In this document: one piece after another, positions 13,044 to 29,570 of the stretch
Position numbering within the stretch: the stretch's first letter is position 1
Layout: the number at the start of each line of letters is the position of its first letter
Source of the DNA: Anaerolineales bacterium
GTDB taxonomy: Bacteria > Chloroflexota > Anaerolineae > Anaerolineales > Villigracilaceae
DNA: 64,000 bases
Assembly (NCBI GenBank): GCA_030583925.1
Contig: CP129482.1
Span: 1,302,001-1,366,000, forward strand
Direction of reading: 5' to 3'
Translations under genes and position numbers: made by a program
The notes under the pieces: generated by a model
What the model was told of the DNA's origin: nothing
The model's input: only the letters and a program-made list of their open reading frames with translations
Databases searched by the model: none

Positions 13044-13397
13044 ATGAATTCTTGGGTGTATGTTGGTTTGTTCTTGATCGTGGGCATGATCATTCCAGTT
13101 GGCGCGATTGTAGCGGCATGGGTGCTGAACCCGAAAAAGCCGAACCCCATTAAGCAGACCACGTACGAATGCGGCATCGAAACGGTGGGCGACACGTGGG
13201 TGCAATTCAAAGCGCAGTATTACATTTTCGCTCTCGTGTTTTTGATCTTCGATGTGGAGACCGTTTTTCTCTTTCCGTGGGCGGTGAAACTGGGTCAACT
13301 CGGTATGTTCGCCGTGATCGAAGGCATCATCTTCATTCTCATCCTTGTCGTCGGCTTGGTGTACACATGGCGAAAGGGAATGCTGGAATGGGTGTAA
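13044..13397 (+). CDS. nuoA: NADH-quinone oxidoreductase subunit A
   Basis: NuoA is a small membrane subunit of complex I that closes the quinone-binding region. The 117-residue protein has three membrane helices, the conserved YECG loop after helix 1 and the acidic helix motif [19 protein letters not shown] site lies upstream of the ATG. In most nuo operons nuoBCD follow; here the next gene is nuoH, after a terminator-like hairpin and a palindromic repeat. Identification is secure; its isolation from nuoBCD is unusual. Confidence 0.93.
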
Positions 13398-13415
13398 TCT
13401 TTATGCGCGAAATCG

Positions 13416-13455
13416 GAAAAGGCTGAATTGGTTTAACCCGTTCAGCCTTTTCTTT
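13416..13455 (+). terminator. Terminator-like hairpin after nuoA
   Basis: GAAAAGGCTGAA (13416-13427) pairs with TTCAGCCTTTTC (13441-13452) over 12 bp, with a 13-base loop, and TTTG follows. It could end or weaken transcription between nuoA and nuoH. Confidence 0.55.
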
Positions 13456-13469
13456 GTGTAGAAGAACGA

Positions 13470-13536
13470 ACCGCTAAAGGCGCGAAGTTCGCCAAGAAAA
13501 AACCAAAAGCTTTGCGCTCTTGGCGGGCTTAGCGGT
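13470..13536. repeat. Imperfect palindromic repeat between nuoA and nuoH
   Basis: ACCGCTAAAGGCGCGAAG at the left and a matching GCGCTCTTGGCGGGCTTAGCGGT at the right form an imperfect long stem. It occupies the place where nuoBCD are found in complete operons. Confidence 0.55.
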
Positions 13537-13559
13537 AAAAAATCCTCGTAGGAGCAGTG

Positions 13560-14747
13560 ATGGATTTTCTCAAAGACCCTCTGAAAGTCGCGGCTGATTG
13601 GCTGTTGGGAATTTTTGCGGGATGGGGCATGGCTGAACTGTGGGCGGATATTCTGGTCGCCTTCCTCGGCATCTTTGTATTGATCGCCCTGCTCATGCTG
13701 TTGGATATTTTGCTCGTGTGGATCGAACGCAAGGTGGTCTCGCGCTTTCAATCCCGCATCGGACCGAATCGCCTCGGACCGTTCGGGCTGATCCAGCCAT
13801 TCGCCGACATCATCAAACTTTTAATTAAAGAAGACACCACTCCCGAAGGCGCGGATAGGGCGCTGTACAACCTCGCGCCGATTCTCTCGATGATGTCTGT
13901 GTTGATTTTGTGGGCGGTGGTGCCGCTCGCGCCGACCATCCTTGGCGTGGATTTGAACGTTGGTGTGCTATATATCATCGCCGCCGGAGCGATCGGCACG
14001 CTTTCGATCATCATGGCGGGCTGGTCGTCGAACAATAAATATTCGCTCATCGGCGGCTTCCGTGAAGTGGCGGTGATGCTCTCGTTTGAAATCCCGATGC
14101 TGACCGTGATGCTCATCCCGACGATCTTTACCGGTTCGATGGGCATCGGCGCGATCACGCAGGCGCAGGATGTGTGGTTCTTCTTCCTCGCTCCGCTTGC
14201 GGCGGTCATTTTCCTCATTGCCGCGATCGCCGAACTGGGGCGCTCTCCGTTCGACATGGGCGAAGCGGAATCGGAGTTGATCTCTGGCTACAACATCGAA
14301 TATTCGGGTATGAAGTTCGGAATGTTCTACGCGGGCGAACTCTTGCACGCGTTCACCTTTGGCGGTTTTTGGGCGATTCTGTTCTTCGGCGGCTATCGCT
14401 TCTTTGGGCTGGAGCAGGTCAGCGCGTTCCTTGCGATTGCGGTTTTATTCTTCAAAGCCTTCATCGGCTATTGGATCATCATGTGGGTGAAATACACCCT
14501 GCTCCGCATCCGCATTGATCACATGCTCGCCTTCAATTGGAAATTCCTCACGCCTGTCGCTTTCACGCTGTTGATGACGACTGCCTTCATGAATGCGCTT
14601 CTCGCGGACGTTTCAACCTGGCTCCGCATAGGCGGCATGTTCCTCTCGAACGTTTTGGTCGCGTGGGCGGCGCTCGAAACGGCGCGGTATTACAGCCGCA
14701 AAGAACGTGAGAAAGTGGATGGTACGCAGAAAGTAGCGCCGACTTAA
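13560..14747 (+). CDS. nuoH: NADH-quinone oxidoreductase subunit H
   Basis: NuoH is the membrane subunit that links the quinone site to the antiporter-like subunits. The 395-residue protein has about eight to nine helices and the conserved cytoplasmic loop ERKVVSRFQSRIGPNR then GPFGLIQPFADIIKLL, which lines the quinone cavity. ATG 13560 has GGAG five bases upstream; a GTG directly before it is possible but less likely. The last codons and the TAA stop fall inside a GTAG-headed palindrome (14733-14753), so the final residues were probably set by insertion of that repeat. nuoI, usual next neighbour, is missing; nuoJ follows. Confidence 0.94.
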   Translation: MDFLKDPLKVAADWLLGIFAGWGMAELWADILVAFLGIFVLIALLMLLDILLVWIERKVVSRFQSRIGPNRLGPFGLIQPFADIIKLLIKEDTTPEGADRALYNLAPILSMMSVLILWAVVPLAPTILGVDLNVGVLYIIAAGAIGTLSIIMAGWSSNNKYSLIGGFREVAVMLSFEIPMLTVMLIPTIFTGSMGIGAITQAQDVWFFFLAPLAAVIFLIAAIAELGRSPFDMGEAESELISGYNIEYSGMKFGMFYAGELLHAFTFGGFWAILFFGGYRFFGLEQVSAFLAIAVLFFKAFIGYWIIMWVKYTLLRIRIDHMLAFNWKFLTPVAFTLLMTTAFMNALLADVSTWLRIGGMFLSNVLVAWAALETARYYSRKEREKVDGTQKVAPT

Positions 14748-14753
14748 GTCGGC
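14733..14753. repeat. GTAG-headed REP hairpin supplying the nuoH stop codon
   Basis: GTAG (14733-14736) is followed by the perfect palindrome GCCGACTTAAGTCGGC (14738-14753), the same as at 11974-11989. The TAA at its centre (14745-14747) is the stop codon of nuoH. Confidence 0.65.
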
Positions 14754-14771
14754 ATTCCGTTTGGAGAATTT

Positions 14772-15281
14772 ATGACCGTTGACCAGATTGTTTTCCTTGC
14801 AGTTGCTTTGCTCACGTTGTTTGCCGCGCTGCGCGTAGTGACGACAGGCAACATCGTCCATGCCGCGTTTTGGTTGATCGCCGCGCTGTTCGGCGTGGCG
14901 GTGATCTTCGCTTTGCTCAATGCAAGTTTTCTCGCCGTTGTTCAGGTTGTGGTGTACATCGGAGCGATTGCGATGCTGTTCATCTTCGCGGTGATGCTCA
15001 CCCGCAAAGAAATGCGTGACCGTGGTCCGCAGTTGAATCCCAATTGGCGATTCGGCGCATTGCTGGCGGCGGTCGCGTTTGGCGGACTGCTCCTGATCGT
15101 CAACGGTTGGAGCGGCGTCACGAAGACTGCGTCAGCCGTCCCGTCGGATTTTGACGCGGTGTCGGCGTTGGGCAATGCCCTTGTCTCACCCGACGCGTAC
15201 GTCCTGCCGTTTGAAGTGGCGTCGGTGCTACTCGTCGCCGCGTTGATCGGCGCGGTGTATGTGGCGTTCAATCAAAAATAG
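14772..15281 (+). CDS. nuoJ: NADH-quinone oxidoreductase subunit J
   Basis: NuoJ is a five-helix membrane subunit that packs between NuoH/A and NuoK in complex I. The 169-residue protein has the expected length and the conserved third-helix region VQVVVYIGAIAMLFIFAVML, whose helix switches between alpha and pi forms during turnover in characterised complexes. TTGGAG lies upstream of the ATG. It is followed by a palindromic repeat and then nuoK. Confidence 0.93.
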   Translation: MTVDQIVFLAVALLTLFAALRVVTTGNIVHAAFWLIAALFGVAVIFALLNASFLAVVQVVVYIGAIAMLFIFAVMLTRKEMRDRGPQLNPNWRFGALLAAVAFGGLLLIVNGWSGVTKTASAVPSDFDAVSALGNALVSPDAYVLPFEVASVLLVAALIGAVYVAFNQK

Positions 15282-15288
15282 AAACCTC

Positions 15289-15340
15289 GCCACAGAGATC
15301 GCAGAGTTCTTTGAGAAAAATTCTCAGTGCGCTCTGTGGC
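15289..15340. repeat. Palindromic repeat family C (nuoJ-nuoK gap)
   Basis: GCCACAGAGATCGCAGAG at the left pairs with GCGCTCTGTGGC at the right around an A-rich centre. Related copies lie inside murE (32910-32973) and at 34839-34896. Confidence 0.75.
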
Positions 15341-15358
15341 TAAGAAACTGGAGACCTC

Positions 15359-15667
15359 ATGGTGCCTCTCTCATGGTATCTCATTTTTTCGGCGGCGTTG
15401 TTCAGCGTCGGCTTGTTCGGCGTGTTGACGCGGCGCAACGCGGTTGCGATTCTGCTCGGCGTCGAGTTGATGTTGAACTCGGTCAACGTGAACCTCGCCG
15501 CGTTCTGGCGTTACGGCAACGTGACCGACATCGCAGGGCAGGTCTTTGCCATCATCGTCTTCGCCGTTGCCGCGGCAGAAGTGTCCGTCGGTCTTGCGTT
15601 GGTGATTTCCATTTACCGCAAACGCAACACGGTGATTGCGGATGATCTTGATATGTTGAAATTCTAG
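15359..15667 (+). CDS. nuoK: NADH-quinone oxidoreductase subunit K
   Basis: NuoK is the small three-helix proton-translocating subunit of complex I. The 102-residue protein has both membrane Glu residues used in proton transfer, E36 (LLGVELMLNSVN) and E74 (AAAEVSVGLAL). CTGGAG lies just upstream of the ATG. It stands between a family C palindrome and a terminator-like hairpin in front of nuoL. Confidence 0.94.
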   Translation: MVPLSWYLIFSAALFSVGLFGVLTRRNAVAILLGVELMLNSVNVNLAAFWRYGNVTDIAGQVFAIIVFAVAAAEVSVGLALVISIYRKRNTVIADDLDMLKF

Positions 15668-15673
15668 AGATTT

Positions 15674-15719
15674 GAGACTAGAGACTGGCATAGTCTCCAA
15701 TCTCTAGTCTCCAGTTTTT
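15674..15719 (+). terminator. Terminator-like hairpin between nuoK and nuoL
   Basis: GAGACTAGAGA (15674-15684) pairs with TCTCTAGTCTC (15701-15711), with a 16-base loop, and CAGTTTTT follows. It could act as a partial terminator or simply be another palindromic repeat. Confidence 0.5.
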
Positions 15720-15728
15720 GGAGGCTTT

Positions 15729-17867
15729 GTGACAACCGAAACCCTCATCTGGCTAATTCCTCTCCCTCCTGCGCTGGCGTTCTTTTTGATCGTGCTGTTC
15801 ACGAATCGGAACAAGGCGCTCAGTCACACGATTGCCGTCGGCGCGGCGTTCCTTTCGTGGCTCGGAAGCATGATTGTGTTTGTGCGCGCGCTGCGTGTCG
15901 AGAGTCTGGGCGAGAATCCGTTTGAGTCTTCGGTCAATTGGCTACCGACGGGCGATACGTGGTTTCGGGCTGGCGTTCTCGTTGACCCGCTCACTGCGGT
16001 GACGTTGTTCTTCGTCGCGTGGACTGTGTTGATGATTTTCATTTACAGCGTTGGCTATCACAACTTCGGTCAGCCCGCAGGCGACCACGACCACAAGGGT
16101 TTGCCTCCGCACGGAGCGACTATCGAAGAACATGGGCACAAGCATGTTGTTCCGTCCGTTGAGCCGCTTTACTCGCGCTTCTTCGCCTTCATTGGATTGT
16201 TCGCTTTCGGCATGTTCACCCTCGTGATTTCGGACAACCTGCTGACATTGTTCGTCGGCTGGGAGATCATGGGCTTGTGTTCGTACCTGCTGATCGGTTT
16301 TTGGTATGGGAAAAAATCCGCCCGCGACGCGGCAGTCAAAGCGTTCATGACCACCCGCATCGGCGATGTGTTCATGCTCCTCGGCATCGCCTATTTGTAT
16401 TCCGTCACTGGCACACTTTCATTCCGAGAAATTTTCACTGAAACAACTCTGCGCACGCTTGCAAGCATACCGTCCATGGTCAATGGTCTATCGTCCGCGG
16501 GTTTGATCGGCTTGCTCCTCTTCATCGGCGCGATCGGCAAATCGGCGCAATTTCCGCTCCACGTGTGGCTTCCCGATGCGATGGAAGGACCGACTCCCGT
16601 CAGCGCGATGATTCACGCCGCGACGATGGTGTCGGGCGGCGTATACACTGCCATCCGCATGTTCCCGCTCCTCAGCCTCGACTCGACCACGATGAGCATT
16701 GTCGCGTTCATCGGCGCGTTTACCGCGTTGTTTGCCGCCACCATCGCCCTCGCGCAAAACGACATCAAACGTGTGCTGGCGTATTCGACAATCTCGCAAC
16801 TCGGTTTCATGATCGCCGCGCTCGGCATCGGCGCGTACGTCGCGGCGGTGTTCCATCTCATCACGCACGCGTTCTTCAAAGCCTTACTCTTCCTCGGCTC
16901 AGGCTCGGTCATTCACGGCATGGAGCACGGCGTCCTTCACACGGGGAATCACAAAACCGATCCGCAGGACATGTTCAACATGGGCGGCTTGAAAAACAAA
17001 ATGCCGATCACATTTTGGACGTTCCTCATCGGCGGCTTCGCGCTTTCAGGTTTTCCCATTGTCACGGCTGGATTTTGGTCGAAAGACGAAATCCTCGCCG
17101 ACGCGTTCGCGCACAACTTGCCCGTGTTCGTGACTCTCGCCGTCGCCGCGTTCCTCACCGCGTTCTACACGATGCGCCAGATCACGTTGACTTTCCTCGG
17201 CGAGCCGCGCACGAAGGAAGCCACGCACGCGCACGAGACTCCCTGGACGATGACGTCTCCGCTCGTCGTCCTCTCGGTTCTTGCCATCGGGTATGGCTGG
17301 ATCGGCATCCCCGAGCATTTCCCCCTCCTCGGCGGACTCGTCCCGAACTGGTTGCATGATTTCGTCGGCGGGACTCTCGCCGAACACCCCGAAGCGCTCG
17401 AGTTCAACGTCGTGCCGCTGCTTACCTCGTTGGTCGTCGCCCTCGGCGGATTGGGTCTCGGCTACTTGATGTATCGCAACGTCAACTCACCCGCCGAGGA
17501 CAGATTGCAACTCGGCTTTCTCAAAAACAAATATTACTTCGACGAAATTTACGATGTTGTCTTCATCAAACCCATCACGTGGTTTGCCGATAAAGTCGTT
17601 TACCAGATCATGGACAAAGGCTTCATTGACGGCATCCTGCATCTCTTCGGTCCTGGCACGCAAGGTATCGGCGACGGCATCCGCAATTACTTCGATTTAC
17701 CCGTCATCAACAAATTCTTCGGCGACGGCTCGGCAAACGCAACCTATTTCTCTGGTGAAAAACTTCGCCTCGCGCAAACGGGACGCATCCAGCAATATCT
17801 CATGCTTGCGCTGATTCTCTTCCTCGCTATCGGCGCGGCGTTGTATTTTTTCGTGATTGCCGCGTAG
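15729..17867 (+). CDS. nuoL: NADH-quinone oxidoreductase subunit L with His-rich insert
   Basis: NuoL is the distal antiporter-like proton pump of complex I with the long lateral helix. The 712-residue protein starts at GTG behind GGAGG and carries the core motifs FVGWEIMGLCSYLLIGFW and GAIGKSAQFPLHVWLPDAMEGPTPVSA, with the key Glu and Lys. The C-terminal 120 residues form the lateral helix and final membrane anchor. Between two early helices, residues 111-146, there is an extra hydrophilic loop with seven His (H111, H120, H122, H128, H135, H137, H139), absent from the typical protein. The TAG stop lies in a GTAG repeat. Confidence 0.94.
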   Translation: MTTETLIWLIPLPPALAFFLIVLFTNRNKALSHTIAVGAAFLSWLGSMIVFVRALRVESLGENPFESSVNWLPTGDTWFRAGVLVDPLTAVTLFFVAWTVLMIFIYSVGYHNFGQPAGDHDHKGLPPHGATIEEHGHKHVVPSVEPLYSRFFAFIGLFAFGMFTLVISDNLLTLFVGWEIMGLCSYLLIGFWYGKKSARDAAVKAFMTTRIGDVFMLLGIAYLYSVTGTLSFREIFTETTLRTLASIPSMVNGLSSAGLIGLLLFIGAIGKSAQFPLHVWLPDAMEGPTPVSAMIHAATMVSGGVYTAIRMFPLLSLDSTTMSIVAFIGAFTALFAATIALAQNDIKRVLAYSTISQLGFMIAALGIGAYVAAVFHLITHAFFKALLFLGSGSVIHGMEHGVLHTGNHKTDPQDMFNMGGLKNKMPITFWTFLIGGFALSGFPIVTAGFWSKDEILADAFAHNLPVFVTLAVAAFLTAFYTMRQITLTFLGEPRTKEATHAHETPWTMTSPLVVLSVLAIGYGWIGIPEHFPLLGGLVPNWLHDFVGGTLAEHPEALEFNVVPLLTSLVVALGGLGLGYLMYRNVNSPAEDRLQLGFLKNKYYFDEIYDVVFIKPITWFADKVVYQIMDKGFIDGILHLFGPGTQGIGDGIRNYFDLPVINKFFGDGSANATYFSGEKLRLAQTGRIQQYLMLALILFLAIGAALYFFVIAA

Positions 17868-17909
17868 GTTGCGCTCTCTAGCGCAACGACGTTAGAGAAC
17901 GCCTGCTAC
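17864..17909. repeat. GTAG-ended paired hairpins between nuoL and nuoM
   Basis: GTAG at 17864-17867 (holding the nuoL stop) is followed by GTTGCGCT-CTCT-AGCGCAAC (17868-17887), a weaker second hairpin and CTAC at 17906-17909. This is the same GTAG/CTAC-bounded layout as the repeat next to the transposase at 56208. Confidence 0.6.
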
Positions 17910-17924
17910 ACAAGGAATTTTCTA

Positions 17925-19448
17925 ATGGATTTCATCTCCGCTCATTTCCTCTCGCTTATCCTCTTCGTTCCGTCCCTCGCGGCTGTGGTCATGCTCTTCC
18001 TGCCGAAAGATGAAACAAAACTCTTGCGCTGGTTCGCTTTCGGCGCCAGCCTGATTCCGCTTTTGTTGTCGCTTTCGGTTTGGTTCCAGTTCAAGTCGTT
18101 CGTCCCCGGATTCCAGTTTCAAGAACGATACGAATGGTACGATGCCATCGGCTCCTCCGTCCACCTCGGTGTAGACGGTCTCTCGCTCACGATGGTTCTG
18201 CTGACCACGCTCCTCACGCCGCTCGCCATCCTCGCCTCGTTCAACATCGCCGAAAAAGTCAAAGCCTACATGATGCTCTTCCTCTTTTTGGAAACAGGCA
18301 TGTTGGGCGTGTTCATGTCGCTGGATCTGCTCGTCTTCTTCGTCTTTTGGGAAGTGGGTCTTATCCCGATGTACTTCCTCATCAGCCAGTGGGGGAGCGC
18401 CAACCGCAACTACGCCTCGATGAAGTTCTTGATCTACACCATGGGCGGATCGCTCGGACTCCTCCTCGCCATTCAACTCCTCGGCGTTCTTTTCGGGACG
18501 TTCGACCTGCTCGTTCTCACTCAGCGCTGGACATCCCTTGATCCTGATTCGACGTTGCTCGGCATGTCCGTTTCACAAGTGAAGACCATTGCCTTTTGGG
18601 CGTTTACCGTCGCGTTTGCGGTCAAAGTTCCGATCTGGCCCTTCCACACCTGGCTTCCCGACGCGCACACCGAAGCGCCGACCGCTGGCTCGATGATTCT
18701 GGCAGGCGTGCTGCTCAAACTTGGCGCGTACGGATTCCTGCGGCTGATTCTTCCGCTCTATCCGTTTGAAGCGAAGATTTTCGCAGGCGCGTTGGCATTT
18801 CTCGCGACAGCGGCAATCGTCTTCGGCGCGTTCGCCTCGTTCGCGCAGACAGATTTCAAGCGACTCGTCGCGTACTCGTCCGTGAATCACATGGGGTTTG
18901 TCGTCCTCGGAATTGCCGCGGCAGGCTTGGCGTCGGGAACGAAGGAAGCGACCATCGCGTTGAACGGCGCGGTCTTGCAGATGTTCAACCACGGGCTGTC
19001 CGCGGCGGGCATGTTCTTCCTCGTCGGCGTCATCTACGAACGGACGCACACGCGCAACCTCGAAGAGTACGGCGGCTTATTCCCGCTTGTCCCGGTTTAT
19101 GGCGGTATCCTGATCTTTACGAGTTTCGCGTCGCTCGGCTTGCCTGGGCTCAACGGATTCATTTCTGAATTTCTCGTCGTGCGCGGCGTGTGGCCCATCT
19201 TCACGGTGTACACCGCAATTTCCATGCTTGGCTTGCTTTTCACTGGCGCGTACGTTTTGAAAGCGCTCAAAAACGTGTTGCACGGACCGTTGAATGAACA
19301 CTGGGTGCACGGTGAACACAAATTGACCGAGATCAACACGCGTGAAATCCTTGTGATGGCTCCGCTCATGGTTTTGATTTTGTGGATCGGCGTCTACCCC
19401 GCCTGGATTTTGGATGTGATCAACAAAGCAATGATGATGCTTTACTAA
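17925..19448 (+). CDS. nuoM: NADH-quinone oxidoreductase subunit M (first copy, canonical residues)
   Basis: NuoM is an antiporter-like proton pump of complex I. The 507-residue protein has about 14 helices and both essential residues of the proton channel: E143 (FFVFWEVGLIPMYFL) and K234 (FAVKVPIWPFHTWLPDAH), which match E. coli Glu144 and Lys234. The TM8 Lys (LLKLGAYG) is also present. A second nuoM-like gene follows in tandem after a composite palindromic repeat. Identification as a functional NuoM is secure. Confidence 0.94.
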   Translation: MDFISAHFLSLILFVPSLAAVVMLFLPKDETKLLRWFAFGASLIPLLLSLSVWFQFKSFVPGFQFQERYEWYDAIGSSVHLGVDGLSLTMVLLTTLLTPLAILASFNIAEKVKAYMMLFLFLETGMLGVFMSLDLLVFFVFWEVGLIPMYFLISQWGSANRNYASMKFLIYTMGGSLGLLLAIQLLGVLFGTFDLLVLTQRWTSLDPDSTLLGMSVSQVKTIAFWAFTVAFAVKVPIWPFHTWLPDAHTEAPTAGSMILAGVLLKLGAYGFLRLILPLYPFEAKIFAGALAFLATAAIVFGAFASFAQTDFKRLVAYSSVNHMGFVVLGIAAAGLASGTKEATIALNGAVLQMFNHGLSAAGMFFLVGVIYERTHTRNLEEYGGLFPLVPVYGGILIFTSFASLGLPGLNGFISEFLVVRGVWPIFTVYTAISMLGLLFTGAYVLKALKNVLHGPLNEHWVHGEHKLTEINTREILVMAPLMVLILWIGVYPAWILDVINKAMMMLY

Positions 19449-19453
19449 ACCAA

Positions 19454-19580
19454 ATGTCATTGCGAGGAGGGCGGTGGTTGAGTAGGCAGCGTTCGTCTGC
19501 CGTATCGAAACCACCAACCCGACGAAGCAATCTCCCGTCTAACCAGAGGATTGCTTTGCAAAAAACGCTCGCAATGACAT
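19454..19580. repeat. Family B palindrome carrying a nested family A palindrome
   Basis: Outer ends ATGTCATTGCGAGG (19454 onward) and CTCGCAATGACAT (to 19580) with GACGAAGCAATCTCC and GAGGATTGCTT inside define family B, as at 54369-54462. Inserted near its left arm is a complete family A unit, 19473-19515 (GGTGGTTGAGTAGG to ATCGAAACCACC). This shows one repeat inserted into another. Confidence 0.8.
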
Positions 19581-19593
19581 ATTTGAGGCTTTC

Positions 19594-21105
19594 ATGAACT
19601 TTCCTGTACTAAGCGTAATTACCTTCACACCCCTCGTCGCCGCGCTGGTGATGTTGGTCATCCCCGCACACCGCAAGAACGAAGCCCGCGCGGTGGCGTT
19701 GGCTTCGGCAACGTTTGCCCTGATCCTTTCGTTGTGGGTGTATTTCAACTACGATCAGACAGCCGCAGGTTATCAGTTCATCGAACGATATAACTGGCTT
19801 CCCGCGCTCGGCATCAGCCTCCACTTCGGCGTGGACGGCATCAGCGCGCCGCTCGTTTTACTGACCGGCGTGGTGATGTTCACCGGCGTCTTGATCTCGT
19901 GGGGCGACGATCGTCCGCACGTGATGGCTGGCATCCAAGACCGCCCGCGCGAATTCTTCGCTTTCCTGTTTATTTTGGCGACCGGCGTACTCGGCGTGTT
20001 TGTCTCACTCGACCTGTTCATGCTGATCTTCTTCTACGACATTGCCGTATTTCCGATGTACTTGCTCATCGTGATCTGGGGTTGGAAGGTGACGCGCGAA
20101 TACGCCGCCATGAAGTTGACTCTCTACTTGTTGATCGGCTCCATCGTTTCGCTCGCCGGCATCCTCGTGATGGTGTTTGCCCAATACCAGAATACCGGCT
20201 TGCTCTCCTTCGACATGCTGAAGATGGAAAACGCCGGCTTCTCGCAATCCTTTCAAAACATTTGGTTCCTGCCTGTCTTTCTCGGCTTTGCCGTCTTGGG
20301 CGGCATCTGGCCCCTCCACAACTGGTCGCCGGATGGTCACGTCGCCGCGCCGACCGCCGTTTCGATGTTCCATGCGGGCGTGTTGATGAAACTTGGCGCG
20401 TTCGCCGCCCTGCGAGTTGGAATTATGTTGTTGCCCGACGGCGCGAAATATTGGCAGTGGCTCATTATGGCGTTCGCCGCGATCGCCGTCGTCTACGGCG
20501 CGTACATCGCTTTCGTGCAAATGGACTTCAAATACATGGTTGGCTTCTCGTCCGTTTCGCACATGGGACTCGTCATGCTCGGATTTTCCACGCTCAACCG
20601 CGACGGGTTGCTTGGCTCGGGCTTGCAAATGTTTTCGCACGGGGCGATGACCGCCCTCTTCTTCGCTGTCGTCGGCATGATCTACGACCGGGCGCACACG
20701 CGTCAGATTCCCGAATTGGGAGGCATCGGCAAGGTTATGCCGTTCGCCACGGTAGGCTTCATCATCGGCGGCTTGGTCTCGATGGGTATGCCGATGTTCT
20801 CCGGCTTTGTCGCCGAGTTTCCCATCTTCATGGGAGTCTGGCAGGCGCAATGGCTGGTGGCGGTTGTGTGCAGTATCTCGATCGTCATCACCGCCGCGTA
20901 CATCATGCGGAATATCCGCCAGGTCTTCTTTGGTAATCTGCCCAAAAAACTCGAAGGTCAGATCACTGACATCACCATTCTGGACAAAGTGGCAATCGCC
21001 ACTCTATGCCTTTTCATGGTGGTGATCGGATTACATCCCAAATTCATGGCGCCGATGGTGCAGACTGGCGTTGACTATGTTTTGCGCTTGCTGGGAGGCT
21101 CATAA
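19594..21105 (+). CDS. nuoM: NADH-quinone oxidoreductase subunit M (second copy, divergent proton channel)
   Basis: A second NuoM-like subunit, 503 residues, about 14 helices. It aligns with the first copy but differs at the sites that move protons: the TM5 Glu is Asp149 (IFFYDIAVFPMYLL) and the TM7 Lys is Leu235 (FAVLGGIWPLHNWSPDGH). The TM8 Lys (LMKLGAFA) is kept. Tandem NuoM pairs are known in some complex I variants that carry an extra antiporter-like subunit. Here the substitutions suggest a pump with altered coupling or a mainly structural extra subunit. It overlaps nuoN by one base. Confidence 0.88.
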   Translation: MNFPVLSVITFTPLVAALVMLVIPAHRKNEARAVALASATFALILSLWVYFNYDQTAAGYQFIERYNWLPALGISLHFGVDGISAPLVLLTGVVMFTGVLISWGDDRPHVMAGIQDRPREFFAFLFILATGVLGVFVSLDLFMLIFFYDIAVFPMYLLIVIWGWKVTREYAAMKLTLYLLIGSIVSLAGILVMVFAQYQNTGLLSFDMLKMENAGFSQSFQNIWFLPVFLGFAVLGGIWPLHNWSPDGHVAAPTAVSMFHAGVLMKLGAFAALRVGIMLLPDGAKYWQWLIMAFAAIAVVYGAYIAFVQMDFKYMVGFSSVSHMGLVMLGFSTLNRDGLLGSGLQMFSHGAMTALFFAVVGMIYDRAHTRQIPELGGIGKVMPFATVGFIIGGLVSMGMPMFSGFVAEFPIFMGVWQAQWLVAVVCSISIVITAAYIMRNIRQVFFGNLPKKLEGQITDITILDKVAIATLCLFMVVIGLHPKFMAPMVQTGVDYVLRLLGGS

Positions 21106-22559
21106 TGTTCACGGCGACGACTTTCGTATCCATCCTCCCTGAAATTCTGATTCTCGTTTTGGGCATGCTTGTCCTCATCATCGAGCCGTTCTGGAAAGCG
21201 GAAAAACGCCGCAACGTGGGCTGGCTCACCGCTGGCGGGTTACTCGCCGCCGTGGCGATCAGTTTTCTCGTCGGTCAGCCCGGCGAACCGACCTCCGCTC
21301 TCGGCGGCATGATCCGCTTCGATTGGCTGGGGTTCTTCCTCAAAATGTTGTTCATGTTCGCGGGCGCGGCAACGGCGTTGTTGATGATGGATCACGAACG
21401 TCTCGGCGCGCGCGGCGAGGCGTATCTGCTTCTGCTTGCCTCGCTCATCGGGATGAACTTGATGGCGGTCTCTGCGGACCTCATCATGCTCTTCCTCTCC
21501 ATTGAGACCGCCTCGATTCCTCTCTACGTGTTGGCTGGGTTCAGCCTAGGCGACGATCGCTCCACCGAAGCCGGATTCAAATACCTGATCTTCGGCATTT
21601 TAACCACGACGCTCATGTTGTACGGCTTTAGCCTCGTCTTCGGCTTCTCCGGCACAACGGACATGTACCGGCTAGCGGAGATGTTCCAAGTGGGGGAGAT
21701 CTCTCCGCTCGCGGCGTTTGGGATCCTCGCGTTGATCCTTGTCGGTATCGGTTTCAAGGTCGCGTTCGTGCCGTTCCATTTCTGGTCGCCGGACGTGTAC
21801 GAAGGCGCGCCGACGCCGGTCTCCGGGTTTTTATCCACTGCCTCAAAAGCGGCGGGATATGCCGTGTTACTGCGTTTGTTCTTCATCGCTTTCCCCGACC
21901 CCGAACTTTCCAAGTTTTGGACGATCACCCTTGCGATCCTTTCCGCTGTGACGATGACTCTGGGCAATTTACTTGCGCTTCCGCAAAGGAACATCAAGCG
22001 ATTGCTTGCCTATTCGTCCATTTCACACACGGGATACACCTTGATCGGCGTGGTCGCGCTCACGCAACTCGGCGCGGCGAGCGTTGTGCTTTATCTTGCC
22101 GCATACGTTCTTACCAACCTGCTTGCTTTCGGCATCGCGATGGCGTTCAGCAAAGTGACCGGCTTGGAAGACATCCACGATTACGCCGGGTTGAGCCGCC
22201 GCTCCCCCTGGCTGGGATGGATGATGTTGACCGCGTTCCTCTCGCTGACGGGGATGCCTCCATTCGGCGGGTTTATCGCGAAGGTGGTGGTCTTTGCGGC
22301 GGGCATTCAGGCCGGTTACGTTTGGCTGGTTATCATCGGCGTTATCAACTCGGTGATCGGCGCGTACTACTATTTGAACGCGCTCAAGTTCGTTTACCTC
22401 TATCGTATGCCCAATGAGGATGAGGAGAATCACCCCATTCCGTTGACGCGTCCATACGCGATCGCGCTTGTAGCGCTCACCGTTGGCGTGATCCTGATTG
22501 GGACGATCTTTGCCCCATGGTTCAACTGGTCTGGTATGGGCGCGTTGAATTTGTTTTGA
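21105..22559 (+). CDS. nuoN: NADH-quinone oxidoreductase subunit N
   Basis: NuoN is the third antiporter-like pump, next to NuoK in the membrane arm. The 484-residue protein has the TM5 Glu (SIETASIPLYVLAGF) and TM7 Lys (GIGFKVAFVPFHFWSPDVY), so its proton channel looks intact. Its ATG overlaps the stop of the second nuoM by one base, showing tight coupling of the last two genes. It ends the nuo cluster; a hairpin and the ATPase promoter follow. Confidence 0.94.
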   Translation: MFTATTFVSILPEILILVLGMLVLIIEPFWKAEKRRNVGWLTAGGLLAAVAISFLVGQPGEPTSALGGMIRFDWLGFFLKMLFMFAGAATALLMMDHERLGARGEAYLLLLASLIGMNLMAVSADLIMLFLSIETASIPLYVLAGFSLGDDRSTEAGFKYLIFGILTTTLMLYGFSLVFGFSGTTDMYRLAEMFQVGEISPLAAFGILALILVGIGFKVAFVPFHFWSPDVYEGAPTPVSGFLSTASKAAGYAVLLRLFFIAFPDPELSKFWTITLAILSAVTMTLGNLLALPQRNIKRLLAYSSISHTGYTLIGVVALTQLGAASVVLYLAAYVLTNLLAFGIAMAFSKVTGLEDIHDYAGLSRRSPWLGWMMLTAFLSLTGMPPFGGFIAKVVVFAAGIQAGYVWLVIIGVINSVIGAYYYLNALKFVYLYRMPNEDEENHPIPLTRPYAIALVALTVGVILIGTIFAPWFNWSGMGALNLF

Positions 22560-22817: not shown

Positions 22818-23129
22818 ATGAACGAGAAGAACATTCGACAGGTCCTTGAAATCGAAAAGCAGGCGCAGGAACTTCAAGATAAGGCGAAGCGCGACGCGCA
22901 GGAAATTCCGGTGAGGGCGGAGCAAGAGGCGCAGGCATTGTTGGTGCGCGCCCGATCGGAGGCTCAAGATGAGGCGCGCAAAATCGTTTCCGCTGTGCAG
23001 TCGGAGGATAGATCGAAGGAAGTGCTGGCGGACGTGGGTGTAAAGAATAACGAGTTCGATGCGCTTGCCAAGAAGAATTTTGATAAGGCTGTCGCGTACG
23101 TTCTGGACCGCGTTCTCGGTAAGGCGTAG
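22818..23129 (+). CDS. atpH: V/A-type ATPase stalk subunit G/H
   Basis: This is a short peripheral-stalk subunit of the V/A-type rotary ATPase. The 103-residue protein is highly charged and almost wholly predicted alpha-helical coiled coil in residues 1-65 (repeating Ala/Gln/Glu/Arg), then a small C-terminal segment ending VLDRVLGKA. Position at the head of the ATPase operon and composition make the assignment; sequence conservation in this subunit is naturally weak. GTGAGG lies about ten bases before the ATG. It pairs with subunit E to form the stator. Confidence 0.8.
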   Translation: MNEKNIRQVLEIEKQAQELQDKAKRDAQEIPVRAEQEAQALLVRARSEAQDEARKIVSAVQSEDRSKEVLADVGVKNNEFDALAKKNFDKAVAYVLDRVLGKA

Positions 23130-23131
23130 TT

Positions 23132-24220
23132 ATGGCGAGCGGCGTTTCAGGGTACGCGGCGATCAGCACGAAAGTGCGGGCGATGTATTCCAATCTGCTG
23201 ACCCCGCAGGACATTTCTCGTTTAAGCGATTCTCCCGATTTCCCATCGTTAATCAGCTCACTCAAAAATACTCAATATGGACCGTATCTTTCGGCGTTGA
23301 AAGATAATGAACTCACGCCGCGCCGGGCGGTCCAGCAGATCAAACTGCGGCTGGCGGATTCCTATTCAAGTGTCGTGCAAATGTCGCCGGAGCAGACGCG
23401 CCCGTTGATCAAGCAGTTATATCGTTATTTCGAGTTGGGGAATTTGAAAGCGGTTTTGCGAAGCATCGTCACGGTCTCTTCGGCGTGGAATGCGGATATG
23501 GCTCCATGGGATCGTGTGCGCGAAGTTCTTTTCCCGTTCGGTTCTTTTTCCACGCTACCGGCTCAGGCAATGGTCGAGACGGGGAACGTGCCTGCGGCAG
23601 TGGAGTTGTTGAAGGGCACGCCGTATGAATCGGCGATGTCGTTCGCGATGAAGCGTTTTTCCGCCGAGCAGAATCTGTTTCCGATCGAAGTGGCGCTGGA
23701 TTTGGATTACTGGCGCCGCTTGTGGGCGGAAGCGAAAAAACTGAGCGGGTTAGACCGCGAAGCCGCGACCAAGATTGTCGGCTCGCTCCTCGATATGAAC
23801 AACTTGATGTGGGCTATCCGTTATAAGGTGTATCACAAACTTTCCGAAGAGGAACTGATCAACTATACGCTGCCGTTCGGGTTCCGCGTGCGCGACGAAG
23901 ACGTGCGCGCGATCGCGGCGGGCGCGGATGTCGCCGCGATCGTTTCGCGTATTTTTCCTTCCATTTCGGATGTGAACACGCTTCTGGAGAACCCTCAAAC
24001 TGGTTTGCCCAAACTGGAGGTTCAACTCAAGCGTCAGGTGATGAAGCAATGTACCGCCGCGTTTGTCGGCAACCCGTTCCACATTGGGCTTCCGCTCGCG
24101 TTCCTGATCTTGAGCGACCTCGAAATACAGGATTTGATCGCGTTGATCGAAGGTAAATCTTCGGATATTTCCGACGAAGACCTGCGTTCCGTTTTGTTGA
24201 AGACAAGTTTACAGAATTAG
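23132..24220 (+). CDS. atpC: V/A-type ATPase subunit C (central-stalk socket)
   Basis: Subunit C/d sits on the proteolipid ring and joins it to the central stalk D/F. The 362-residue protein is the expected size and mostly helical, with no membrane segment. Features of the family include the start YAAISTKVRAMYSNLLT and the middle ELGNLKAVLR. It begins two bases after the stop of the stalk subunit. A short family B palindrome separates it from subunit I. Confidence 0.88.
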   Translation: MASGVSGYAAISTKVRAMYSNLLTPQDISRLSDSPDFPSLISSLKNTQYGPYLSALKDNELTPRRAVQQIKLRLADSYSSVVQMSPEQTRPLIKQLYRYFELGNLKAVLRSIVTVSSAWNADMAPWDRVREVLFPFGSFSTLPAQAMVETGNVPAAVELLKGTPYESAMSFAMKRFSAEQNLFPIEVALDLDYWRRLWAEAKKLSGLDREAATKIVGSLLDMNNLMWAIRYKVYHKLSEEELINYTLPFGFRVRDEDVRAIAAGADVAAIVSRIFPSISDVNTLLENPQTGLPKLEVQLKRQVMKQCTAAFVGNPFHIGLPLAFLILSDLEIQDLIALIEGKSSDISDEDLRSVLLKTSLQN

Positions 24221-24226
24221 AAACTG

Positions 24227-24281
24227 ATGTCATTGCGAGGGCGTGTTTTTCGTCGGGCTAAAGCCTTCCTCGCGATGACAT
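24227..24281. repeat. Short family B palindrome
   Basis: ATGTCATTGCGAGG (24227-24240) pairs with CCTCGCGATGACAT (24268-24281), with a shortened core. It lies between subunits C and I and ends just before the ribosome site of subunit I. Confidence 0.7.
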
Positions 24282-24297
24282 GATAAATGGAGATGAT

Positions 24298-26292
24298 ATG
24301 TTTTTTCCAAGAGAGATGACCGAAGTTGAAGTGATCGTCCCTTCCAAGGATTTGGTCGCGGTGGCGAAGGTGTTAAGCGGCCGCGGCGTTTTTCATCAGG
24401 TGGACAGCACCTACCTTGGGCTGGAGAGTCTGGGTCCGAGCACGTGGCAGGAAAAAGCCGCGTATTATTCCACGCTCGAGCGTCGGATTCAAAACACCAT
24501 GCAGACGCTGAATCTTGAGGAAGAGCCGCGCGGCTCGGCGGATTTTGAAACTATCGCTGACTTGGATGCAGTTCGACCCGCCGTTGACCGGATCGAAGAA
24601 GACGTCAAAAAGACCGGCGATCAGCTGTCCAGCGAAAAGAAGCGGCTCGAATTACTTGAGAGTCAACTGCGTCAGATCGAACCGATCGCCGATGTGAAGG
24701 TCGAGGTCGGCGCGCTCAACAAATCATCCCATGTCCACTCCATTCTTGGCGTGATGCCTGCGGCGCAATTCAGTCGTCTTGAAACAAGTTTGGCGCGGGT
24801 GCCGCACGTCCTTTTTACATTGAAGGAAGATAGCCAGAAACCGGTCGTCTGGTTGCTCGGACCGCGTAGTAATTTCGATGTGCTCGAACGCGCGGCGAAG
24901 AGCGCTTACCTTAATCCGCTGACTTTGCCTGAGGAATTTAGCGGCACGCCGGAGCAAATCTCGGCGAAGACGCGCAAGGCTATCGAAGAATCGAAGCAGA
25001 AGATCTACGAGTTGGAAAACCAACTCAAGAAACTTTCCGGTGTACATAAAACGGAACTTCAAAAATTATGGTGGGACGTGCACGTAAGCCGCATGATGGC
25101 GGACGCCATCGTGCGCTTCGGTCAACTCCGCCACACATACGTTGTGGTCGGCTGGGTCCCCAGCGGCGACTTGCCGCAGCTCATGGAGAGACTCAAGCAA
25201 GCCTCCAAAGAAATCCTCATCGAAACCATTCCCGCAGAACGCTCCGGTCATCACTCGAATGTTCCCGTCGCGTTGACGAATAATAAGTGGCTACGTCCCA
25301 TCCAGAATTTAGTCACCACGTATGGGCGCCCGGGGTACGGCGAACTCGACCCGACTCTTCTTGTTGCGTTGACCTTCCCGCTCTTGTACGGCGCGATGTT
25401 CGGCGATCTGGGGCAGGGACTCGTCATGATGCTGATCGGCTATCTCGCGCACAAAAAGATATTCATGAAGAGCCTGTCGAGCCTCGGCTTGCTTCTCGTG
25501 TATTGCGGTTTCTTTGCCTCGATCTTTGGCGCGCTGTATGGCAGTATTTTCGGCTTTGAAGGTCACTTGATCGAAGAATATCTCCATTTCCACTTTGAAC
25601 CGCTTTGGATCAGCCCCCTTGAGAATATCCTCACCATTCTGGGCTTTGCCATTGACGCCGGTATCGTGATCTTGCTGTTCAGTTACCTGCTGAGCTTGTT
25701 CAACATGGTCCGCGCGCGCGATTGGGCGCATTTCTGGTTCGGTCACACGGGCGTGGTCGCGATTTGTTTTTACTTCTGCTTCCTGACCATTCTAAACGGA
25801 CTTCTCGGCACAACTCCCATCGCCCCGAAAATTGCCGCGCTGATCAGCCAGTTGCCGCTGCCGTTCAACATCCTGACGCCGATTTTTGCCTTTGGCGTGA
25901 TGTTCAACAGCCTGTTCCGCAATATTGCGGAAGGGCATCGCCCGTTGATCGAGGGTAGCGTTATCATGTACCTCGTTACGGCGTTCATGGACTTGTTCGA
26001 GTCTGTGATCAGCATGTTATCGAATACGCTGTCGTTCGTCCGCGTGGGCGCGTTCGCGGTGGCGCACGGCGGTCTGAGTCTTGCTTTCTTCTCGCTGGCA
26101 GGCGAAGAGCCGACTATCGGATTCTGGATTACCCTGCTGATCGGCAACATCTTTATCATCGGCTTTGAAGGTCTCATCGTATATATCCAAACGATGCGTC
26201 TGCACTATTATGAAATTTTGGGCAAGTTCTTCCACGGCGGAGGCATGCGCTTCGAGCCGTTGCGGCTGAACCCCTCACAAGAGGAGGCGTAA
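24298..26292 (+). CDS. atpI: V/A-type ATPase subunit I (membrane stator, a-subunit)
   Basis: Subunit I forms the ion half-channels and holds the stator. The 664-residue protein has a cytoplasmic N-terminal half with coiled coils (about residues 75-130 and 220-250) and a membrane half starting near TFPLLYGAMFGDLGQG, with about eight helices. The Arg needed for ion release is present in LSFVRVGAFAVAHGG. GGAG at 24289-24292 is five bases before ATG 24298; an earlier ATG at 24280 lies in the repeat and is less likely. Length and layout match the family. Confidence 0.92.
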   Translation: MFFPREMTEVEVIVPSKDLVAVAKVLSGRGVFHQVDSTYLGLESLGPSTWQEKAAYYSTLERRIQNTMQTLNLEEEPRGSADFETIADLDAVRPAVDRIEEDVKKTGDQLSSEKKRLELLESQLRQIEPIADVKVEVGALNKSSHVHSILGVMPAAQFSRLETSLARVPHVLFTLKEDSQKPVVWLLGPRSNFDVLERAAKSAYLNPLTLPEEFSGTPEQISAKTRKAIEESKQKIYELENQLKKLSGVHKTELQKLWWDVHVSRMMADAIVRFGQLRHTYVVVGWVPSGDLPQLMERLKQASKEILIETIPAERSGHHSNVPVALTNNKWLRPIQNLVTTYGRPGYGELDPTLLVALTFPLLYGAMFGDLGQGLVMMLIGYLAHKKIFMKSLSSLGLLLVYCGFFASIFGALYGSIFGFEGHLIEEYLHFHFEPLWISPLENILTILGFAIDAGIVILLFSYLLSLFNMVRARDWAHFWFGHTGVVAICFYFCFLTILNGLLGTTPIAPKIAALISQLPLPFNILTPIFAFGVMFNSLFRNIAEGHRPLIEGSVIMYLVTAFMDLFESVISMLSNTLSFVRVGAFAVAHGGLSLAFFSLAGEEPTIGFWITLLIGNIFIIGFEGLIVYIQTMRLHYYEILGKFFHGGGMRFEPLRLNPSQEEA

Positions 26293-26380
26293 GCCCTTAG
26301 ATTGACAAATCACGATCTATGAAAGAAATAGTTACACAAACGTCCGATAAAAATTTTCTACATCAACAAGGAGATAAACA

Positions 26381-26812
26381 ATGTTCTTAGTTTTTGCTGT
26401 ATTGGTCGGTTTGATCCCGGTCATCCCTGCGGTGATCTACGTGATCCAAAACGGAAAGACCAGCCCCTCGCTGGCGGTTTCTCGCATGATCACGGGCTTT
26501 AACGCCTTCAACTTCATTGTTGGATTGATGGCGGGCGGTCTTGCCCTCATTTGGCTTGCTTCTCCCTCGTCGGCGTTCGCGGCTGGCGCGGCGCAGGAAG
26601 GCGTAGTGGATCAGTACGCGACCCTCGCGGCGGCTCTTTCCACGGGTCTCGCTTGTATCGGCGCAGGCATCGCGGTCGGCGGCTCCGGCGCGGCGGCGGT
26701 TGGCGCAACGGCTGAAAAGCCCGAATCATTCGGTCGCGCGCTCATCTTCGTGGGTCTCTCCGAAGGTATCGCGATCTACGGCTTGATCATTTCCTTCCTT
26801 GTCCTCCCGTAG
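26381..26812 (+). CDS. atpK: V/A-type ATPase proteolipid subunit K
   Basis: Subunit K makes the rotating ion-carrying ring. The 143-residue protein starts behind a perfect AAGGAG and has four hydrophobic segments; the first pair (to about residue 65, ending SPSSAFA) resembles a signal-anchor and may be cleaved, the second pair is the conserved hairpin. The ion-binding carboxylate is E128 in GLSEGIAIYGLIIS, and no second membrane carboxylate is seen. The Gln residues typical of sodium-binding rings are not obvious, which leans to protons, but this is uncertain. Confidence 0.9.
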   Translation: MFLVFAVLVGLIPVIPAVIYVIQNGKTSPSLAVSRMITGFNAFNFIVGLMAGGLALIWLASPSSAFAAGAAQEGVVDQYATLAAALSTGLACIGAGIAVGGSGAAAVGATAEKPESFGRALIFVGLSEGIAIYGLIISFLVLP

Positions 26813-26830
26813 GGCTCAAAGGGAATTTGC

Positions 26831-27136
26831 ATGAAGGTTCTGGTCATCGGTCATCCTGACGCGGTGCTTGGGTTTTCCCTCGCGGGTGTAGGGGGCAGGG
26901 TCGCCTCCACCGCCGAAGAGGTCAATCAGGCGCTCGATGATGTCCAATCCGCTAAGGACGTGGGCATCGTCCTCGTTACGCAGGATGTGGCTGAATTGAT
27001 CCCGACGCGCATGGAGCATCTCAAACTGCGGAGCACGATCCCGCTGGTGGTTGAGATCCCCTCGCGCGGCGGCGTTCCAGAGGGCCAGGCGTCGCTTGGC
27101 GATATCGTACTTCGTGCGATCGGCATCAAGTTATGA
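26831..27136 (+). CDS. atpF: V/A-type ATPase subunit F
   Basis: Subunit F is a central-stalk component that binds subunit D and can regulate ATP hydrolysis. The 101-residue protein has the normal start MKVLVIGHPDAVLGFSLAG and a Rossmann-like alternating pattern, then a C-terminal helix. The end region has the usual VEIPSRGG turn. It lies between K and E. The assignment rests on the conserved N-terminal strand, length and operon place. Confidence 0.9.
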   Translation: MKVLVIGHPDAVLGFSLAGVGGRVASTAEEVNQALDDVQSAKDVGIVLVTQDVAELIPTRMEHLKLRSTIPLVVEIPSRGGVPEGQASLGDIVLRAIGIKL

Positions 27137-27186
27137 CCTCATCCTGTCGTAGTTCGCGCAGGAGGAAGAGATTGGATATTTGAGAC

Positions 27187-27807
27187 ATGAAATCTGAAGC
27201 AGAAGATATTGAGATGCTTGAGCGGGCGATCCTCATGGAAGCCCGTGAAGAAGCCGAGCAGATGCAGGCGGAAGCCAAAGAGAAGGCGGATGCCATCCAT
27301 AAGCGCGCGCAGGAACAGGCGATCGCAGAGCGTCGAGTTATCCTTGACCGCGCCACGCAAGACGCCGAACGTCTTCGCAGTCAGGCGATGGCGACCGCTC
27401 AACTGAAGGCGCGCTCCTCACAACTGGAACATCGCGAGAAATTACTGGATAGCGTGTTCGCGGAAGTGAAGAAACAACTGGGCGGCGTCGCGCAGCGATC
27501 CGACTACGGCGCAATTGCGGCATTGTTGGCGCGCGAAGCCTTATCCCAACTGCGTGTGGATAAGGCAGAAATTCGAGCGGATGAATCAACACAGAACGCC
27601 CTCAAAAAGGGCGCGTTGGATGAGATCGCGAAAGAAATGAAGGGTGAATTCACCCTCGCCGGCGCGCTGAACGAAGGCACGGGCGTGGTGGTGGATGCCG
27701 CAGGCGGCAAACTCCACTATGACAATACGCTCGAGACGCGCTTGAGCCGCTTGCAAGGCACGCTCCGTTCCGCGGTGTATAAAGTGTTGATGGGAGAATC
27801 GGTATGA
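27187..27807 (+). CDS. atpE: V/A-type ATPase subunit E
   Basis: Subunit E is the second peripheral-stalk component. The 206-residue protein has an Ala/Glu/Arg-rich coiled coil over about residues 1-90 and a globular C-terminal domain containing GGVVVDAAGGKLHYDN-like sequence (seen as GTGVVVDAAGGKLHYDN) near residues 168-184. Its stop overlaps the start of subunit A by four bases. Length and domain order fit the family. Confidence 0.9.
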   Translation: MKSEAEDIEMLERAILMEAREEAEQMQAEAKEKADAIHKRAQEQAIAERRVILDRATQDAERLRSQAMATAQLKARSSQLEHREKLLDSVFAEVKKQLGGVAQRSDYGAIAALLAREALSQLRVDKAEIRADESTQNALKKGALDEIAKEMKGEFTLAGALNEGTGVVVDAAGGKLHYDNTLETRLSRLQGTLRSAVYKVLMGESV

Positions 27808-29570
27808 GCAATGAAGTAGGAAAAATCACCTGGATCAGCGGACCTGTCGTCCGCGCCCGCGGCTCACGCTTCGTCGGCATGTTGGAATTGGTCGAAGTTG
27901 GCGAGGAACGGCTGGTGGGCGAGGTTATCGGTCTCAAGGGAGATCAGATGACCGTGCAGGTTTACGAAGAGACCGCCGGTATGCAGCCCGGCGCGCCGAT
28001 CTTCGGCACCGGCTTGCCTCTCTCCGTCGAATTGGGACCCGGCTTACTGCAATCTATCTACGACGGCGTCCAGCGACCGCTTCCGTTGATCGAACAAGCC
28101 GTAGGTTCGTTCATCAACCGCGGCGCGCGTTTCGATTCGATCAGCCGTGAGAAAAAATGGATGTTCACTCCGAAGGTCAACGTCGGCGACGAAGTCAAAG
28201 GCGGATCGGTACTCGGCGTAGTGAAAGAGACCGACACCTTTGAACACCGTGTGATGGTTCACCCCGATGACGCCGGCACGATCACATGGGTCGCTTCGGC
28301 AGGCGAATACACGATTAACGACACGATCGCCAAGTTGAAAACCGGCAAAGAAGAAAAAGATGTCACCATGATGCAGCGCTGGCCTGTTCGCCGGGCGCGC
28401 CCGTTCGTTCAGCGGCGCGGCGCCAACGTCCCGCTCATTACCGGTCAGCGTATTTTGGATACGTTCTTCCCGGTCGCGAAGGGCGGCGCGGCGGGCATCC
28501 CCGGTCCGTTCGGTTCCGGCAAAACGGTGACACAGCATAGCATCGCCAAATGGGCGGATGCCGACATCATCGTCTACATCGGATGCGGCGAACGCGGCAA
28601 CGAAATGACCGAAGTGTTGCAGGAATTCCCGCATCTCGTGGACCCTCGGTCTGGTCGCCCGTTGATGGAGCGTACCGTCCTCATCGCCAACACTTCGAAC
28701 ATGCCGGTGGCGGCGCGCGAAGCGAGCATCTACACGGGCATCACCATCGCGGAATACTATCGCGACATGGGTTATCACGTCGCGTTGATGGCTGATTCAA
28801 CCTCTCGTTGGGCAGAAGCGTTGCGCGAAGTTTCCGGGCGTCTCGAAGAAATGCCCGCCGAGGAAGGGTATCCCGCTTATCTCGCCGGTCGCCTTGCGGA
28901 ATTTTACGAGCGCGCCGGTTACGTGGACAACTTGAACGGCACGAACGGATCCGTCAGCATCGTCGGCGCGGTCTCGCCTCCGGGCGGCGACTTCTCCGAA
29001 CCGGTCACCCAGCACACCAAGCGTTTCATCCGCTGTTTCTGGGCGCTGGATAAATCGCTGGCTTCCGCTCGTCACTTCCCAGCCATCAACTGGCTGGACT
29101 CGTACAGCGAATACATCGAAGATGTGGCAAATTGGTGGCGCGAAAAAGTCGGCAAAGATTGGCTGGAGATGCGCAACAAAGCCATGGAATTGTTGAGCGA
29201 AGAAGCGCGTCTTTCGCAGATCGTTAAACTCGTCGGACCCGACGCGTTGCCCTATGCGGAACGCATGGTGTTGGAAACGACCCGTCTCATCCGCGAGGGC
29301 ATCCTGCAACAGAACGCCACAGACTCAGTGGACGCGTACTCCTCCGTGGAGAAGCAGATCCGCCTCTTGGAATTGGTGCTGTATTTCCACGAGCGCGGCA
29401 TGGCGATCGTCAAGCGCGGCGCGCCGATCAACCTCATTCACGATCTTCCCGTTGTGGATACCATCATCCGCGCCAAATCATCGGTCACCAACGAAGAACT
29501 GCACAAGTTGGACGATATACAAAAAATGATTGACGAGCAGATGGGTCAATTAGATGCGGAGTATAGATAA
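27804..29570 (+). CDS. atpA: V/A-type ATPase catalytic subunit A
   Basis: Subunit A holds the catalytic nucleotide sites of the rotary ATPase. The 588-residue protein carries Walker [10 protein letters not shown] near residue 233, the bulge domain typical of A-type catalytic subunits before it (about 110-190), and [18 protein letters not shown], a hallmark of the family. Walker B lies in HVALMADS. It overlaps subunit E by four bases and subunit B by one base. Identification is unambiguous. Confidence 0.96.

Follow-up and report, generated by a model that had tools for sequence, protein, structure and literature searches.

The window, by which we mean the whole 64,000-nucleotide stretch of DNA analysed here, comes from the 3.97-Mb genome of a member of the order Anaerolineales in the phylum Chloroflexota. 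Its plus strand carries the membrane-arm operon of a complex I at 13044 to 22559, with the gene order nuoA-H-J-K-L-M1-M2-N. The operon is made up of the following genes:

13044..15667, plus strand: nuoA, nuoH, nuoJ and nuoK, in the same operon as nuoL-M1-M2-N
15729..17867, plus strand: nuoL, 712 residues, with the HL-helix segment at about 17514-17753
17925..19448, plus strand: nuoM1, 507 residues, 529.7 bits to TIGR01972, a Lys-type NuoM with Glu143 and Lys234
19594..21105, plus strand: nuoM2, 503 residues, 440.1 bits to TIGR01972, of the Lys-less (Leu/His) clade
21105..22559, plus strand: nuoN, with its key residues intact

The two NuoM proteins are 37% identical, and both score above the 263.8-bit cut-off of NCBIfam TIGR01972 by which NuoM was called. 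A second nuoM between nuoL and nuoN (L-M1-M2-N, 15729-22559) identifies a complex I with two NuoM subunits, or 2M complex I, and the window nuoL has the long HL segment of this class, at 80 residues. Published accounts of Chloroflexota 2M complex I describe the same gene order and elongated HL segment, along with nuoBCDI at a separate site with nuoCD fused, and the host genome has a candidate NuoCD-like frame at a distant site. This is a second NuoD match (C1:2759947-2761035) in a 585-residue frame, a length sufficient for a NuoCD fusion. It lies apart from both membrane-arm operons of the genome and is a candidate partner of the window's complex; the other operon, at C1:3.44-3.46 Mb, belongs to a second complex I with one NuoM.

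Directly after nuoN and on the same strand is a V/A-type ATPase operon (22818-30997), in which a 670-residue ORF matches the V_ATPase_I family and the ORFs at 27804 and 29570 resemble the A and B subunits. Upstream of the nuo operon are an MttB-family (trimethylamine methyltransferase) ORF with no in-frame TAG (10531-11967) and an 807-residue FAD oxidoreductase/GCV_T fusion of the dimethylglycine or sarcosine dehydrogenase type (5412-7835), which together suggest methylamine metabolism.

The role of the GluTM5-LysTM7 ion pair in complex I is disputed, as it has been regarded as a proton wire, a gate, or a relay between subunits. LysTM7 pairs with GluTM5, and LysTM8 leads on to a TM12 residue (PMC10212512). 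In the E. coli structure the Glu-Lys pair of NuoM is 5.8 Å apart (PMC13324432), and every reported mutant of E. coli Lys234 lost function (PMC3046159). The corresponding positions in nuoM2, all on the plus strand, are as follows:

20038..20040, plus strand: Asp149 (GAC), equivalent to E. coli NuoM Glu144, the TM5 carboxylate
20056..20058, plus strand: Met155, equivalent to Met150, which is Lys in four Lys-less NuoM without the TM8 His
20296..20298, plus strand: Leu235 (TTG), equivalent to Lys234, at the end of TM7a
20302..20304, plus strand: Gly237, equivalent to Pro236, at the TM7 break
20371..20373, plus strand: His260 (CAT), equivalent to Leu259, the gained TM8 histidine
20389..20391, plus strand: Lys266, equivalent to Lys265, the central LysTM8, kept
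20560..20562, plus strand: His323, equivalent to His322, the bridging His, kept in 139 of 139
20815..20817, plus strand: Glu408, equivalent to Glu407, GluTM12, kept in 139 of 139

Set against the residues typical of antiporter-like subunits, NuoM2 has the TM5 acid (Asp149) and lacks the TM7-break Lys (Leu235). It is nonetheless of the NuoM type, with a Glu in TM12 (Glu408, a Lys in NuoL and NuoN) and the TM8 Lys (Lys266). An earlier note on this DNA had read Glu143 and Lys234 in NuoM1, and Asp149 and Leu235 beside a retained TM8 Lys in NuoM2; these assignments are correct, and those of NuoM2 were checked at the codon level. Misalignment was rejected as the source of the missing Lys, as the flanking motif FAV...IWPxHxWxPD places Leu235 unambiguously, so that no realignment gives a Lys at the TM7 site. 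When the conserved columns of M2 and M1 are compared, His260 is the only titratable residue that M2 has acquired within the membrane core, and the TM7-break Pro236 has become Gly.

The AlphaFold2 model of NuoM2 (pLDDT 89.9, pTM 0.91) has the 14-helix antiporter-like fold and matches solved NuoM structures at Z scores of 52-56, the best being 8e9g_M (Z 56), with 3rko and 4he8 at Z 52-53. In the model, Leu235 lies where TM7a ends, TM8 carries both His260 and Lys266, and Asp149 belongs to TM5. Canonical NuoM/ND4 proteins (E. coli NuoM, T. thermophilus Nqo13) have the fold, the TM5 acid, LysTM8, the bridging His, and GluTM12 in common with NuoM2, whereas in NuoM2 LysTM7 is Leu, the TM7-break Pro is Gly, and a TM8 His has been gained. 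NuoL differs in another way, since it retains LysTM7 and lacks the LysTM8 typical of NuoM, while NuoM2 has both a His and a Lys on TM8 and no LysTM7.

Chloroflexota were surveyed across 301 genomes, from which 60 regions were fetched, with a search tuned to M2, so that counts of Lys-less NuoM are not frequencies for the phylum. The Lys-less set comprises 139 distinct NuoM without the TM7 Lys, NuoM2 included. The TM7 site is Leu in 137 of these, with a single Met and a single Thr, and at the TM5 site 133 sequences have Glu and 6 have Asp, leaving a carboxylate in every sequence. Replacement of Lys by Leu is thus a conserved family trait, and replacement of Glu by Asp is local and minor. The loss of both the canonical Glu and the canonical Lys, as first proposed from NuoM2, therefore stands for the Lys and falls for the Glu, which is retained too widely for its loss to be a general trait. 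Lys173, Asp310, Lys312, His322, and Glu407 (E. coli numbers here and below) are invariant across the set, and LysTM8 is in place in 133/139 and moved by one residue in the other six. Four M2 proteins (L161, L162, L163, L168) combine this shift (VLKAT) with Gly at His348, and two sequences (L144, L170) have the shift alone. A pseudogene was considered and rejected on the open reading frame of all 139 sequences and on low dN/dS. NG86 values for NuoM2 are about 0.05-0.16 (about 0.05-0.13 for most pairs, the window's included), with several dS near saturation, and nuoM2 is under strong purifying selection.

A histidine at TM8 position 259 is found in 133 of the 139 Lys-less NuoM and in none of the 138 Lys-type rows. 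Four of the six sequences without it (L043, L046, L141, L143) have a Lys at TM5 position 150, six residues past the TM5 Glu; the remaining sister pair (L174, L175), both with Asp144, has neither. A replacement basic residue is therefore present in 137/139, none of the 138 Lys234-type rows (some sequences repeated) has a basic residue at 150 or 259, and Lys234, His259, and Lys150 are mutually exclusive across the compared NuoM. With a TM8 His gained in nearly all Lys-less NuoM, the channel site looks rebuilt, not broken. Whether a neighbouring Lys and Glu might fill the same sites in space had been raised at the outset; realignment supplies none, and what is found is a basic residue on a neighbouring helix, the TM8 His or TM5 Lys. 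The M2 proteins L043, L046, and L141, which carry Lys150, also have a new TM8 Glu (AGVEMK) at position 263, preceding LysTM8 by two residues.

In a tree built without the TM7 and TM8 columns, every Lys-less NuoM falls in one clade (SH-aLRT 99), beside Lys-type proteins of one-NuoM complexes, and NuoM1 clusters with Lys-type NuoM. The Lys-to-Leu/His swap has one origin, so most of the 139 rows are not independent. On a tree from which the replacement columns were omitted, two changes are required to account for the Lys150 rows, though one common origin for them is compatible with the AU test (p 0.096).

Lys-less NuoM occurs in two settings. In operons ordered L-M1-M2-N it is the M2; in 17 operons ordered L-M-N, which belong to other Chloroflexota families, it has no second NuoM beside it. 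These 17 are the one-NuoM loci with a complete adjacent nuoL; loci cut before M1 were left out. In two of the genomes (G298 and G256, 89% and 87% complete) no NuoM was found besides the Lys-less one, and each of the other 15 has one or more additional NuoM matches, the ones fetched being Lys-type. The key NuoL and NuoN residues are intact in all 17 operons, and trees of NuoL and of NuoN gather the 2M complexes into a single group and the one-NuoM Lys-less complexes into another. The HL segment of NuoL spans 77-91 residues in 2M operons, 57 in 17/17 one-NuoM Lys-less operons, and 55 in E. coli; the NuoL of the host's own one-NuoM complex (L007, G000:C1:3445813-3449886) has 87 by the same columns, so a long HL segment alone is no marker of a two-NuoM complex. 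Alignment with the NuoM2 of other two-NuoM complexes confirms that the absence of the Lys is shared, and its occurrence in one-NuoM operons removes the notion that it is special to an extra subunit. Redundancy of an added copy was accordingly rejected as the cause, and the Lys loss is not the mark of a decayed extra subunit.

The same Leu/Ala/His pattern was found outside the phylum by a protein search of plasmid records, in NuoM of Bacteroides finegoldii, Phocaeicola massiliensis, and Prevotella nigrescens. These three join the Lys-less clade in a smaller tree, and in the two operons with annotation no other NuoM accompanies the protein; a rhizobial plasmid NuoM, used as a control, retains Lys234. 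The small Bacteroides and Phocaeicola records are labelled plasmid and may be chromosome fragments. The Bacteroidales nuo operon, whose 11 genes encode a complex that lacks NuoEFG, as does that of Bacteroides fragilis, thus shares the Leu234/His259 type and clade with NuoM2, but has one NuoM where the window operon has two. Deletion of nuo in B. fragilis did not lower NADH activity (PMC7002350).

We infer that NuoM2 is a working NuoM of a type in which the TM5 carboxylate has had its basic partner, or its gate, moved from TM7 to TM8, and rarely to TM5, a reading to which we give a probability of about one half. The old NuoM clade to which it belongs has exchanged the TM7-break Lys for Leu and the nearby Pro for Gly and has gained a His on the adjacent TM8, with a small side branch having a TM5 Lys in its place. 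Close to where protons enter from the cytoplasm, the new residue would serve the TM5 carboxylate as a mobile basic partner or as a gate, and in NuoM2 His260, near both the input and the TM7 break, may be the partner or switch for Asp149. With the wire from LysTM8 through His (TM11) to GluTM12 unchanged, the subunit would still pass a proton under changed gating, in one-NuoM and two-NuoM complexes alike. This reading draws on the conserved swap, the kept wire, the single clade, the 17 operons with no other NuoM, the Bacteroidales proteins, and the low dN/dS.

Published work on the channel is consistent with a kept wire and a changed gate in NuoM2. In isolated Nqo13, conduction is blocked by LysTM8 to Met or GluTM12 to Gln and becomes faster when the ion pair is broken by Glu to Gln (PMC11496545). 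Helix VIII has the half-helix and the Glu of TM5 as its neighbours (PMC4938563), and in NuoM the half of TM8 on the cytoplasmic side is mobile as well as buried (PMC8357420). The TM7 Lys is truly absent, and consistently so across the clade, which makes a change in gating chemistry likely, and the part of the earlier note's proposal that foresaw altered pumping is plausible as altered gating.

The faster conduction of Nqo13 with a broken pair also suits an alternative, that the ion pair was given up, leaving the TM5 acid without a basic partner and conduction to LysTM8 and GluTM12, with His260 only widening the cytoplasmic input. His260 aligns within one residue of the TM8 histidine of NuoL/ND5, His254, which links input to the central axis (PMC10212512), and the adjacent Asp258 forms part of the input path in E. 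coli NuoM (PMC13324432), so that His259 may serve the input and not an ion pair. L174 and L175, which have no replacement whatever, count in the same direction and against relocation. The strict exclusion among Lys234, His259, and Lys150 suggests instead one shared role, and Lys150 in TM5 is no obvious input residue; loss of the pair without replacement is in our view unlikely, if worth serious attention.

The second half of the earlier proposal, that NuoM2 might not pump, corresponds to a subunit that either conducts no protons or is uncoupled, and that has been retained for a structural or relay role. The Lys is missing from every M2, and the loss of function in the E. coli Lys234 mutants speaks for it and against relocation; those mutants, however, had no TM8 His. 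The same NuoM type is the only one in 17 operons and in Bacteroidales, and the invariant wire residues, the replacement in 137/139, and purifying selection also go against it, making it improbable. It is very improbable that this subunit transports a different ion (Na+ or K+) in the clade, with the missing Lys and the changed TM8 shifting its ion selectivity. Helix VIII has been suggested to determine ion specificity in NuoL/MrpA (PMC4938563), but there is no sign of a cation site here: LysTM8 is retained, and the His and Glu of the proton wire never vary.

To our knowledge, no exchange of the TM7 Lys for a TM8 His has been described in a NuoM clade. Literature searches that covered openly readable papers, among them ones citing the founding 2M study, gave no mention of it. 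Papers citing that study (Chadwick et al. 2018) regard the second NuoM as one more pump (PMC7117926, PMC6606698, PMC9040806), and they mention neither the missing Lys, nor its replacement, nor the occurrence of the M2 type alone.

Returning to relocation, it is quite possible that the TM7 Lys, which is regarded as essential to antiporter-like subunits, is dispensable in a fully coupled complex I, its role having moved to the TM8 His in the Chloroflexota and Bacteroidales clade and to the TM5 Lys in the side branch. A natural Lys-less clade with three alternative sites for one basic residue offers ready-made variants for the ion-pair dispute, and it gives a direct prediction, that K234L would be rescued by L259H. 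Two-NuoM complexes can also be read anew, as the Lys-less copy is of a type that makes up one-NuoM complexes by itself, so that M1, and not M2, may be the added subunit.
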